This document shows, one piece after another, positions 1,124 through 36,520 of a stretch of 48,626 nt of DNA (positions are counted from its first letter, which is position 1; each line of letters opens with the position of its first letter). Below the pieces are notes generated by a model. It did no database searches. It saw only the letters and a list, made by a program, of their open reading frames with translations, and was not told the origin of the DNA. Source of the DNA: Pyrinomonadaceae bacterium (lineage in GTDB: Bacteria > Acidobacteriota > Blastocatellia > Pyrinomonadales > Pyrinomonadaceae); contig JAICGZ010000009.1 of the NCBI GenBank assembly GCA_025922875.1, positions 1-48,626 on the forward strand. The letters run 5' to 3'. The position numbers and the translations under genes were made by a program.

Positions 1124-3106
1124 CTAATTGTGCTGGATACGGATGTCAAAGACAACCGGCTCGCTGGTCTGATCAGGCGCTGCTTTCACTCTCACAAACG
1201 GCGCCCGGGCGTTTGATTCGTCGAGTTCAGTGACCACGCGTTTTTCCTGATATTTGCTCACAAACGATTTTAGTTCCGCCTGCTGCGCCGGCGACAAAGG
1301 CCGCCCGGTAACTGGCTCATTCAGAAACGAAGGCGACGGCAGTTGAGTCCGTGAAAAGATAACCGTGAAATTGTCCGTTCCAGGGTTCTTATCAAGCGTT
1401 ACATTATTACCGGACCCGCTTGGAAAACTAAACTCGACTCCCTTTGTGACCTTATTGCTCCTGACTCCACTTTCCGGCAGCGGGTTTGTCGTCAGGAACG
1501 CGGTCGGCTGGTTGTTCTCGCCAGGGCCGAAGATATAAACGTATCCCTCTTCATTGAAAGCGAAGTGAAACTTGAACGACTGGCCGGAAGCAAGCGGTAC
1601 CAGTCCCGCAATTCTGTTTGACTGCGCACCCGAAGCTGCCGGCTCGAGTTCAAGCCAGTAGCGACTGATCTCTTGCGGAGCGTTGACGACTTCACCGGAA
1701 CTGTTGACGTTTGTTGCATTGGATTCTGTCGTTGTCGACCTCGAACGATTCCAAAGCCAAAGGCCGCCGATGCCAACAACTAAAATAAGTCCGAACGTAA
1801 CCACAGCAGCTATCAACAACGCTGCTTTGCTTTTTGAAGCCCGTCTCTCGGCTGCAATCTTCGGCAGCTCAGGCGCCGGCTTTGGCGCGGGTGGAACCGT
1901 TACGCTTGACGCCATCGAGGCGGATTCGGCTACTGTCGCTCCGGACATGTCAGGCTCACGTTTCGCCGGCTCATAAACTGTCAGATCATTTGTGGCAGCG
2001 GCGCGCCCGGGAGTAGGAGTAGTCGGCGATGGCTCGATCGTAAGTATAGTTGGCGCGTTGACGTCGGAATTTGTTTCCAGACTAGTCTTGAGCGCAATCG
2101 TTTCAGCCACGTCCGCAGCCCCGGCGCCGGCACTCGGCGACGTAGCTAATCCCGCACGCAACTCGTTGGCTAGAGCACCAGCGGTCGGTTGCCGATCACC
2201 TCGATCTTTTGCAGTAGCACGTTCGATCGCATCGCTGAAACCTCGCGGTACGTCCGGCACGACTTCGTGCAGCGGTCGCGGGCTGGTGGTGACATGTTCG
2301 CGTCGCAACTCCTGCAACGTGTTTCCCGCGAAAGGACGCCTGCCCGAAATCATCTGGTAAAAGACGAGGCCTAGACTATAAAGGTCCGCGCGTCCATCGA
2401 TCTCGCTATTGCCGTCACGCGGAATCTCGCCCCACTGTTCCGGCGACATGTAATAAGGAGTGCCGAGCACCTGGCCCGCCATCGTGAGCGCGGTGTTTCC
2501 TCCATTATCACCGGCAATTTCACGCATCTTGGCGATGCCGAGATCGAGCAGTTTGATTACCGGCTCTCCGCCTTCGGCAGGCTTTCCCACCATGATGTTC
2601 TCTGGCTTGAGGTCGCGATGTACGACACCCATGGAATGCGCAGTATCGAGAACACTCATAATCGGTGTGAGGATCTCGAACGCTTCAGCGGCAGTAAACC
2701 GTCCGCGAGTCTTGAGTTCCTGCTCGAGAGTATGCCCTTCGACATACTCCATCACCATGTAGATCGTGCCGTCGCTCGCCGTGCGAAGATCGTAAACCGT
2801 TACCGAGTTCGGGTGTCGAAAACGACGCGCCGCCTGACCCTCGCGCCGGAACCGTCGCAGCCACTCGGCATTTGTTCTGACTTCCGGCGGCAGCACTTTG
2901 ATAGCGACGCGATCGCCAAGCAGGATATGACGCGCGCGATAAACTGCCCCCATTCCGCCTTTGCCCAAAAGCGCTTCCATCTGGTATTGCCCGTCGAGCA
3001 CAGTGTTGACGATCGACGCCGGATCGGCCTCCAACACCTCTCCGTCAATCGCACAGAAGCTCACGCTGTCGTCGTATTTTGCTTTGCAGGCAGTGCAGTA
3101 TTTCAT
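1124..3106 (-). CDS. Membrane Ser/Thr protein kinase with DUF4384-like C-terminal domain
   Basis: A 660-residue Hanks-type kinase. Residues 1-25 form a zinc-ribbon-like start (CTAC, then FCAIDG). The kinase domain (about 40-305) shows the glycine loop GKGGMGAVYRA, the VAIK lysine, HRDLKPEN and DLG in place of DFG. A Pro/Thr-rich linker is followed by one membrane segment near residue 430-452 (AALLIAAVVTFGLILVVGIG). About 480-630 is an external DUF4384-like domain with GYVYIFGPG and FTVIFSRTQLPSPSF. It should phosphorylate cytoplasmic proteins in response to an unknown external signal. ATG at 3106 lacks a clear Shine-Dalgarno. The downstream gene at 112-1047 encodes a secreted protein with a related domain. 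Confidence 0.9.
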   Translation of the reverse strand: MKYCTACKAKYDDSVSFCAIDGEVLEADPASIVNTVLDGQYQMEALLGKGGMGAVYRARHILLGDRVAIKVLPPEVRTNAEWLRRFRREGQAARRFRHPNSVTVYDLRTASDGTIYMVMEYVEGHTLEQELKTRGRFTAAEAFEILTPIMSVLDTAHSMGVVHRDLKPENIMVGKPAEGGEPVIKLLDLGIAKMREIAGDNGGNTALTMAGQVLGTPYYMSPEQWGEIPRDGNSEIDGRADLYSLGLVFYQMISGRRPFAGNTLQELRREHVTTSPRPLHEVVPDVPRGFSDAIERATAKDRGDRQPTAGALANELRAGLATSPSAGAGAADVAETIALKTSLETNSDVNAPTILTIEPSPTTPTPGRAAATNDLTVYEPAKREPDMSGATVAESASMASSVTVPPAPKPAPELPKIAAERRASKSKAALLIAAVVTFGLILVVGIGGLWLWNRSRSTTTESNATNVNSSGEVVNAPQEISRYWLELEPAASGAQSNRIAGLVPLASGQSFKFHFAFNEEGYVYIFGPGENNQPTAFLTTNPLPESGVRSNKVTKGVEFSFPSGSGNNVTLDKNPGTDNFTVIFSRTQLPSPSFLNEPVTGRPLSPAQQAELKSFVSKYQEKRVVTELDESNARAPFVRVKAAPDQTSEPVVFDIRIQHN

Positions 3107-3116
3107 TCAGGGCAAA

Positions 3117-3170
3117 CCACAGATTACGCCGATTCCACAGAGTTTACCTAATCTGTGTAATCTGTGGATA
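3117..3170. repeat. Family D palindromic repeat at the glgP 3' end
   Basis: The left arm CCACAGATTAC and right arm GTAATCTGTGG are inverted around a short centre. The right arm runs into the phosphorylase gene, so its last codons (PQITQIR and stop) are repeat sequence. Related copies are at 36071-36124 and, in part, 47344-47389. Confidence 0.75.
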
Positions 3171-5303
3171 GATCTTACGGGCATAGTCTTCAACCATTCG
3201 ATCGCTGTTGTACCTCGGTGCGAGCGTCTGAATCGCACGCTTCATCATCGCGATCCAGTTGCGAGGCAGTCCATCATTGTCGCGGTTGTAAAAGCGTGGC
3301 ACAACTTCCAGTTCGAGTGTGCGATACAGCGACTCAGCGTCGGCGCCATCCATCTCCGCGACTGAAGCAGTGTCATTTCCGTTGCCGATGGCAAAACCGT
3401 TGGTTCCGTCGTAGCCCTCGAGCCACCAGCCATCAAGTATCGAAAGATTCAACCCACCATTGATCGCGACTTTCTCGCCGCTTGTGCCCGACGCTTCCAA
3501 CGGGCGGCGCGGAACGTTCAACCAAACGTCGACCGATTGGACCAACTGGCGCGCAATCTCCTGATCGTAGTCTTCGAGAAACACAACCCGCTGCCTGACG
3601 GCCGGATCGTATTTCCACTGGGCCAGTTGTTGCAGGACGAGCTTCGATCCTTCATCCTGCGGATGTGCTTTTCCCGCAAACACAAACTGGACCGGACGCT
3701 CTTCGTTATCAATCAACTTCAAGAGGCGCTTCCTATCAGTCAGGATTAAGTTCCAACGTTTGTAACCAGCAACACGGCGTGCGAAGCCAATCGTCAGTGC
3801 AGCGGGATCAAACATCGTTTTCGCTGCCTCAATGTAATCGGCTTTCTCTCCGGCCGCGATTCGCGATTGGGCCGACCGCTGGCGAATAAACGCAATCAGC
3901 CGCTCTTTTAAATTCACGTGAGCTTTCCATAATTCTTCATCAGGAATGCGAGCGACAACATCCGTCCAGGCGACCGGGTTTCGCAGCTTCGCTTCCCAAT
4001 CGTCGCCAACATGCTGCTCGAACAAATAGCGCAACAGGGGCGAAATCCACGTCGGCGCATGAACGCCGTTAGTGATATGGCCGATTGGAATTTCTTCAAC
4101 CTTCTTCTCGGGCCAGAGTTTCTGCCAGAGAGCGCGCGAAACCTCTCCGTGTTTGCGACTCACACCATTCGTCGAACGACACATGCGAATAGCGAGCGGT
4201 GTCAGTCCATAGCGTTCGGACTTGTTTGCCGGATCGACGCGGCCGAGCGCGAGAAATTCCTCTTCAGTTAGACCAAGCTCGTTCAGATAACCGGGTCCGA
4301 ATGCACGTGTAACGAGTGAAGCTTCGAACTCATCGTTGCCCGCGGCAACGGGTGTGTGTGTTGTAAAAACACATTGCCGTTTCACGGTGTCAATCACTGC
4401 CGCTAACGGCCGCTTCTCTGCTTGAATTACTTCTCGGGCGAGTTCGAGCGTGAGAAAAGCGGAGTGACCTTCGTTCAGGTGGAACACGTGCGGCGACACG
4501 CCGAGTTTTCTTAATAACCTAACGCCGCCGATGCCGAGCAGCATCTCCTGCACGATTCGTGTTTCGCGATCGCCGCCGTAAAGGTGTCCGGTGACCCATC
4601 GATCAGTCTCGACGTTTTCAGGAATGTTTGTATCGAGAAGATAGAGTGGCACTCGCCCAACATCAGCTCGCCATACCTGGGCCAACACGATGCGCTCACG
4701 AATCGAAATCTCGATGCGCATCGGGGTGTCATCCTCGTTCTTAACCAGGTGAATGGGAAGTTCGTTAGGAAATGTTTCACCGTAGTGCTCTTCCTGCCAA
4801 CCATCCGTGCGCAGTCGCTGCCGAAAATAACCGTAGCGATAGAGCAAGCCGATTGCGACGAGCGGTAAGCCGAGATCGCTGGCCGACTTGAGATGATCGC
4901 CTGCGAGTATGCCGAGCCCACCCGAGTAAAGCGGCAGCGAAGTATGAACGCCGAACTCGGCACAGAAATAGGCGACTGGATGTTCCTTAGTTATGCCTTG
5001 AGGCTGGAAATGAGGAGGCGAAATCGCATACGAACGAAATCTCTCATCGATACGATGCAGACGTTCCAGGTAAACCGGATCCGTTGCGGCTTCGGCAAGT
5101 CGATACGCGGAAGTCCTGGCGAGGAGTTCTCGCGGGTTGTACTCACACTCTTCCCAGGTTTCCGGATCGAGATCGCGGAAGATACTTTCGCCATCGGCGG
5201 CCCAACTCCACCAGTAATTCCACGCCAATCGTTCCAGTGGAATTAACGGCGCGGGTAACGCAGCTTTTTGCGTCACACGTTGCTCCATTTCAGTTTCAAT
5301 CAT
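3144..5303 (-). CDS. glgP: Alpha-glucan (glycogen/maltodextrin) phosphorylase
   Basis: A 719-residue GT35 family enzyme that releases glucose-1-phosphate from glycogen or maltodextrin using pyridoxal phosphate. The N-terminal ~100 residues look like the DUF3417 helical region of the bacterial subfamily (LAWNYWWSWAADGE). Then come YFCAEFGVHTSLPLYSGGLG, NEGHSAF, HTPVAAGNDEF, ITNGVHAPTW, GFARRVAGYKR and the cofactor-lysine motif EASGTSGEKVAINGG. The Lys is kept, although the usual Met before it is Glu. The C-terminus ends PQITQIR, which is translated from the family D palindrome. ATG at 5303 has no strong Shine-Dalgarno, and a second ATG lies 15 bases inside. It is shorter than the ~820-860 residues of the Thermotoga and Mycobacterium enzymes but the core looks complete. 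Confidence 0.93.
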   Translation of the reverse strand: MIETEMEQRVTQKAALPAPLIPLERLAWNYWWSWAADGESIFRDLDPETWEECEYNPRELLARTSAYRLAEAATDPVYLERLHRIDERFRSYAISPPHFQPQGITKEHPVAYFCAEFGVHTSLPLYSGGLGILAGDHLKSASDLGLPLVAIGLLYRYGYFRQRLRTDGWQEEHYGETFPNELPIHLVKNEDDTPMRIEISIRERIVLAQVWRADVGRVPLYLLDTNIPENVETDRWVTGHLYGGDRETRIVQEMLLGIGGVRLLRKLGVSPHVFHLNEGHSAFLTLELAREVIQAEKRPLAAVIDTVKRQCVFTTHTPVAAGNDEFEASLVTRAFGPGYLNELGLTEEEFLALGRVDPANKSERYGLTPLAIRMCRSTNGVSRKHGEVSRALWQKLWPEKKVEEIPIGHITNGVHAPTWISPLLRYLFEQHVGDDWEAKLRNPVAWTDVVARIPDEELWKAHVNLKERLIAFIRQRSAQSRIAAGEKADYIEAAKTMFDPAALTIGFARRVAGYKRWNLILTDRKRLLKLIDNEERPVQFVFAGKAHPQDEGSKLVLQQLAQWKYDPAVRQRVVFLEDYDQEIARQLVQSVDVWLNVPRRPLEASGTSGEKVAINGGLNLSILDGWWLEGYDGTNGFAIGNGNDTASVAEMDGADAESLYRTLELEVVPRFYNRDNDGLPRNWIAMMKRAIQTLAPRYNSDRMVEDYARKIYPQITQIR

Positions 5304-36070: not shown

Positions 36071-36124
36071 TAGCCGCGGATTACACGGATCAAATCCGGA
36101 TCTAATCCGTGTCATCCGTGGTTA
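36071..36124. repeat. Family D palindromic repeat at the rpsK 3' end
   Basis: TAGCCGCGGATTACACGGAT is inverted as ATCCGTGTCATCCGTGGTTA. The final TTA is the rpsK stop codon on the minus strand. The rest of the gap (35977-36070) has two direct copies of GCCTCCGGTCT near 35984-36007 and no gene. Confidence 0.85.
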
Positions 36125-36520
36125 AACTCTTCGCCGCTTTGGCGGTCTGCAACCGTTATGCGGAATGGGCGTCGTATCGCGAATCGTCATCACGCGGATG
36201 CCGGCATTCGCAATCGCCCTGATCGCCGATTCACGTCCACCACCTGGACCCTTCACGCGCACTTCGCACTGGTGCATGCCGGCTTCGTGCGCCTTCTTGG
36301 CGGCTTCATAAGCAGCCTGCTGCGCCGCGAACGGTGTGCCCTTGCGTGATCCACGAAAGCCGCGAGCGCCCGCGGACGATTGCGCGATCAGGTTCCCCTC
36401 GAGGTCCGTAATCGAGATCATCGTGTTATTGAACGACGCCGCGATATGCACAATCCCGTTGGGAACGTTCTTCTTCTCTTTCTTACGAAAGACTTTTTTC
36501 TTTCCGCCTGCTTTAGCCAT
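36122..36520 (-). CDS. rpsK: 30S ribosomal protein S11
   Basis: A 132-residue S11 of the platform region. It shows [33 protein letters not shown] and the end [17 protein letters not shown] of the family G repeat arm stands 8 bases before ATG at 36520 and is the only Shine-Dalgarno-like site. Confidence 0.98.

Follow-up and report, generated by a model that had tools for sequence, protein, structure and literature searches.

REP elements have been reported elsewhere to supply stop codons and C-termini to genes (PMC3733652, Di Nocera et al. 2013), so that, going by the available part of that report, the phenomenon described here is already known in kind. Like the repeat family studied here, the GTAG and CGTC REP superfamilies (PMC3733652) consist of short palindromes that are present in many copies and mostly just past gene ends. 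Our family, however, lacks the GTAG and CGTC tags and has its own core, and the element that we describe is, at 51 bp, longer than the 20–40 bp given in the same source as the usual REP length. REPINs and RAYT-mobilized REPs (PMC3116915 and PMC2817692) also show an inverted pair of arms around a loop, many copies, and a mostly extragenic location, but no good RAYT gene was found in the genome studied here, which is 93.5% complete. Rickettsia palindromic elements (RPE; PMC3733652) are likewise palindromic repeats turned into protein sequence, but they insert in frame inside genes, whereas none of our elements lies deep in a gene. Finally, enterobacterial RU elements that contain reading frames (PMC2759123) are, as here, small mobile repeats fused to genes to which they add residues, but these MITE-like units span 103–168 bp, while our element spans 51 bp and its family is without target-site duplications. 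Measured against these systems, as the accessible portions of the papers describe them, the present case is a modest extension of a known phenomenon: a single family of repeats that has captured about twenty gene ends, with a few stereotyped tails.

The window that we analyzed is the whole stretch of 48,626 nucleotides at positions 1 to 48,626 of contig JAICGZ010000009.1 (GCA_025922875.1, Pyrinomonadaceae bacterium), and all coordinates refer to it. At the 3' end of its glgP gene lies a palindromic repeat element of 51 bp (3117–3167, no strand assigned), in which two 18-nt arms (3117–3134 and 3150–3167), 89% complementary, flank a 15-nt loop (3135–3149). GlgP is a protein of 719 amino acids encoded by a minus-strand ORF (3144–5303), with the C-terminus ...YARKIYPQITQIR*. 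On that strand, the arm at 3150–3167 is read as codons 713–718 (PQITQI), and the adjoining 3144–3149 of the loop provides the Arg719 codon (3147–3149) and the TAA stop (3144–3146). The sequence thus bears out an earlier note on this DNA, which had claimed that a palindrome arm forms the end of GlgP; the interval that it gave, 3117–3170, extends 3 nt beyond the arm end (3167). The arm read by glgP matches the arm consensus exactly over 18 nt, with its inverted partner present, and sequences within three mismatches of the arm occur three times in the window versus 0.00 on average in 100 shuffles. A second element of the CCACGG subfamily is found at 36071–36124 (no strand assigned). It is a palindrome of the same kind, with 27-nt arms that are 81% complementary, and the TAA at its tip is the stop of a minus-strand ORF (36122–36520).

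Upstream of the repeat, the native coding part of glgP (3168–5303, minus strand) specifies residues 1–712 of an alpha-glucan phosphorylase and ends at an invariant Tyr712. The protein scores 820.3 bits against TIGR02094 (curated cut-off of 191.7), with positions 1–598 of the 600 in the profile aligned to residues 110–712. To see how its homologues end, we searched 59 genomes, 52 of which had a match at threshold, and read 76 loci, mostly from Pyrinomonadaceae and other Acidobacteriota (29 from the genome search and 47 from named genomes, in two overlapping sets). Seventy were readable past residue 712, while the other six leave the contig or stop aligning earlier. Homologues without the repeat that end in the same residues, which the earlier note had named as the observation that would speak against it, were looked for, and QITQIR ends none of the 70 readable sequences. 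Within the same genus, where we found 11 loci, all 10 with a readable stop end one residue past Tyr712, in Ser (8), Pro (1), or Ala (1) (IYS*, IYP*, and IYA*), and none has the PQITQIR tail. Tyr712 is invariant in an alignment of 22 homologues, and the natural tail past it measures 0–18 residues in the 28 readable of the 29 genome-search loci. Since the same-genus ends sit one residue past Tyr712, the cost of capping would be at most one residue plus the native stop. The suggestion that the native end had been replaced or capped is therefore supported, with "capped" the better word, because the loss is limited to the stop and one native residue at most, without any domain. In an AlphaFold2 model of GlgP (mean pLDDT of 85.2), the last helix comprises residues 700–711, and residues 715–719 have a pLDDT below 50; the PQITQIR tail is thus predicted to be unstructured, beyond a last helix that ends at 711. 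Taken together, the homologue ends and the model indicate that the catalytic body is whole and that the repeat is the source of a loose tail. GlgP proteins from outside Acidobacteriota (L177–L182, L187, L188, L190, L193, and L194) have about 140–163 extra C-terminal residues, which are missing from the GlgP of the near relatives of the window's genome.

Could the tail be native and resemble the repeat only by chance? Pro713, taken alone, would fit this explanation, since it is native in G010. We nevertheless consider chance extremely improbable in view of the exact 18-nt consensus match with an inverted partner and the absence of the tail from all other readable homologues. In the whole genome, the arm within two mismatches gave 92 + 97 = 189 matches, and the reversed-pattern control gave 0 + 0; with this control and the window shuffles, chance resemblance was rejected.

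The junction with the next gene offers a view of what may have happened. Downstream of glgP is a Ser/Thr protein kinase gene (1124–3106, minus strand), which is also its neighbor in G015 and G010. The element is separated from the kinase start codon by a 10-nt spacer (3107–3116, minus strand); the original glgP tail that the earlier note proposed to look for downstream of the repeat is absent, these 10 nt being all that precedes the next ATG. From glgP stop to kinase ATG, the distance is 37 nt in the window, 33 nt in G015, and 75 nt in G010. In G015, the junction reads TAC TCG TAG, followed by the 33-nt spacer. In the window, the element stands where G015 has TCG TAG and the greater part of the spacer, and a short similar stretch precedes the ATG. 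Alignment of the junction with relatives shows no clean insertion, and the nearest relative without the insertion, G004, has 84% GlgP identity, the empty site itself not being seen directly. Since the alignment is ambiguous, an insertion that itself removed native bases looks the same at this junction as one that was trimmed by a deletion afterwards.

From these comparisons of sequence, we infer with high confidence that a member of a REP-like family inserted at the glgP–kinase junction and capped GlgP with PQITQIR. An interspersed palindromic element would have entered this junction in the lineage of the window's genome, eliminating the last residue and stop of the native gene along with most of the short spacer, either at once or by a later small deletion. 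Translation would now pass through one arm and end at the TAA in the loop, adding PQITQIR to a complete enzyme. Such an insertion would be tolerated because the C-terminal tail of GlgP is free and variable and the element carries its own stop codons. The added tail is probably neutral, although it could be functional.

G015 and G010 have the same glgP–kinase order, so that the flanks of the element are genuine on either side, which bears on the possibility that a metagenome assembler joined glgP to another copy of the repeat. The fragmentation of the genome (542 contigs) and the 189 arm matches would make such a join conceivable, but the kinase gene directly past glgP in two other genomes and the repeat ends common to separate genomes, three for CstA and two for DUF2520 (see below), make it highly improbable. 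On the strength of this gene order and of the other captured ends in several genomes, we rejected an assembly join.

It is also conceivable that the element is retained as an RNA hairpin, which would stabilize the mRNA of glgP or modulate the kinase gene that starts 10 nt further on, with the coding tail as a side effect. The minus-strand RNA of the element folds at −18.4 kcal/mol (z of −2.5), and REPs near a stop have been reported to affect translation (PMC12306157, in its available part). However, any palindrome is expected to show a low folding energy, ribosomes that stop in the loop would presumably open the hairpin, and relatives do without the element. In addition, we found no intrinsic terminator (hairpin plus T run) in 2900–3400 and no Rfam family at the element. 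We thus regard a hairpin role as unlikely and keep insertion with capping as the preferred reading.

The glgP element belongs to a large family with the core sequence CCACAGATTACACAGATT. The arm within one mismatch is present in 15/15 genus-mates searched (1 to 52 matches each) but in only 5/43 other relatives, and the window's genome has the highest copy number among the genomes searched. Judged broadly, this is a REP family: short palindromes with a shared consensus, in many copies, that are extragenic and adjoin the 3' ends of genes. It falls outside the GTAG/CGTC superfamilies, as, among 139 outer arm ends, only 3 have the GTAG tag and 2 the CGTC tag. Nor does it show the target-site duplications of MITEs: none were found in 54 two-armed elements, which were flanked by direct 3-mer repeats in 0/54 cases and by direct 4-mer repeats in 2/54 (shuffle mean of 0.55, maximum of 4). 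In this genome, the only Y1_Tnp match is partial and weak (33 bits), and the stretch around it (L148) has no repeat elements listed; since the genome is 93.5% complete, a RAYT gene may be missing from the assembly. The element has few copies in genus-mates that carry as many as 15 Y1_Tnp matches, and we saw no link between copy number and the number of Y1 transposases in the genomes searched. We found no published description of the family in the literature searched (repeat strings; Acidobacteria, Pyrinomonadaceae, and REP), judged by titles and abstract openings, and within this limited search it may be undescribed.

We then asked where the elements lie relative to genes. We used the 88 elements in the window and in 80 stretches drawn from about 100 places among the matches listed (one of the 80 was taken for a transposase hit), and we called genes with a purpose-built codon-usage model rather than curated annotation, which left 476 genes. 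None of the 88 elements is deep in a gene, compared to 70.3% of 3,520 uniform random places. A gene stop lies inside the element or at most 20 nt before it in 53/88 cases, versus 4.6% of the uniform places and 13.4% of 3,000 places that are not deep in a gene. The stop codon itself is inside the element in 20/88, versus 3.0 and 9.0% in the two controls (binomial p of about 9e-5 against the stricter, not-deep control), while 35/88 have an intact stop 0–20 nt upstream. Thirty stops are 0–9 nt before an arm, eight of them directly abutting it (seven TAA and one TAG). Enrichment also extends to gene starts, which lie in the element or at most 20 nt away in 36.4% of cases versus 14.9%, and this counts against a pure 3'-end preference, with the qualification that some of the gene-start calls run long.

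This bias is accompanied by many gene ends that are read from the repeat. Twenty-three genes stop inside an element, five of which overlap it only by 1–2 nt of the stop codon, while 18 draw at least 10 nt from it. Another four genes are read through an arm that stands alone, which brings to 22, glgP included, the genes with at least 10 nt of repeat-coded end, two weaker ORFs (L072 and L117) having been dropped by the filter. The tails are stereotyped: six are PQITQ.. or close (window, L070, L098, L124 minus, L129, and L135), seven are TDYTD or close (L073 plus, L074, L092, L118, L121, L126, and L132 plus), and five, from an outward-read arm, end in ..SV or ..SA (L073 minus, L100, L103, L105, and L119), with four others (L108, L124 plus, L132 minus, and L146). 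The HRLHR frame is used as a captured end by one gene (L108) and by one weak ORF that was filtered out (L072). In 10/10 hand-chosen captured proteins, such as CstA, TyrRS, malic enzyme, and FTR1, the Pfam domains end before the tail. These findings show that gene-end capture is a genome-wide habit of this repeat family, which the earlier note had no means of seeing.

We compared three captured genes besides glgP, encoding CstA, DUF2520, and TyrRS, across the genus. The repeat tail of CstA is common to the window's genome, G004, and G010, while the ends differ in G013, G003, G011, and G005; the homologues in four further genomes are only distant and align no further than residue 555. At the CstA coding ends in three genomes (L207, L208, and L209), the right arm, which comprises the KSV stop and the bases after it, is preserved, while the left arm has decayed to a degree that differs by genome. 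DUF2520 has an 11-residue tail past the shared core in the window's genome and G004, while all 11 other readable loci (L224 is unreadable) continue for 15–25 residues of different sequence; a native end of that length seems to have given way to one of 11 residues. The repeat tail PQITQILKSV (L129:4017-4883 and L223) resembles a native stretch at the same place, DPQILDRISKAL in a relative. TyrRS ends in KATDYTD in the window's genome and differently in 12/12 other loci, 10 of which stop three residues past the shared core. In G004, a related repeat lies 6 nt past the TyrRS stop, where the window's genome reads into one. The orthologue comparison thus supports capture in 3/3 other genes checked, and together these cases indicate that capture is recurrent, varied in age, and able to outlast speciation.

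A bolder idea is that the family acts as a portable gene-end module, whose arms and tips contain stop codons and code for the stereotyped tails (PQITQ.., TDYTD, and ..SV); these, fixed on about twenty proteins of one genome and in part kept over speciation, may have been selected as tags or back-up stops. We view this as distinctly unlikely. The captured ends across the genus could be used to ask about tail neutrality and about repeats as back-up stop codons, and they offer a clean, countable case in which palindromic repeats have reshaped the C-termini of proteins in an uncultured family of Acidobacteriota, for which homologues show the earlier state. They also carry a warning for annotation, since PQITQ, TDYTD, and ..SV tails in these genomes can be repeat-derived rather than conserved parts of proteins.

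The elements just past intact stops (35/88) and the TyrRS repeat in G004 would also suit a variant of the insertion scenario, in which capture takes two steps. The element would first land past the native stop, and a later deletion or stop loss would let translation enter it, the internal stop codons then limiting the extension. G004, with a different palindrome directly past its glgP stop, fits this order of events too, but no glgP intermediate was found, and the spacer is without the element in the three relatives compared. We give this variant a little under even chances, within the favored reading of an insertion that capped GlgP. As for the palindrome past glgP in G004 (L010), it reads CAGGATTAG..., and similar sequences also occur in the genome of the window itself (G000), where they account for 10 matches at 8 places.
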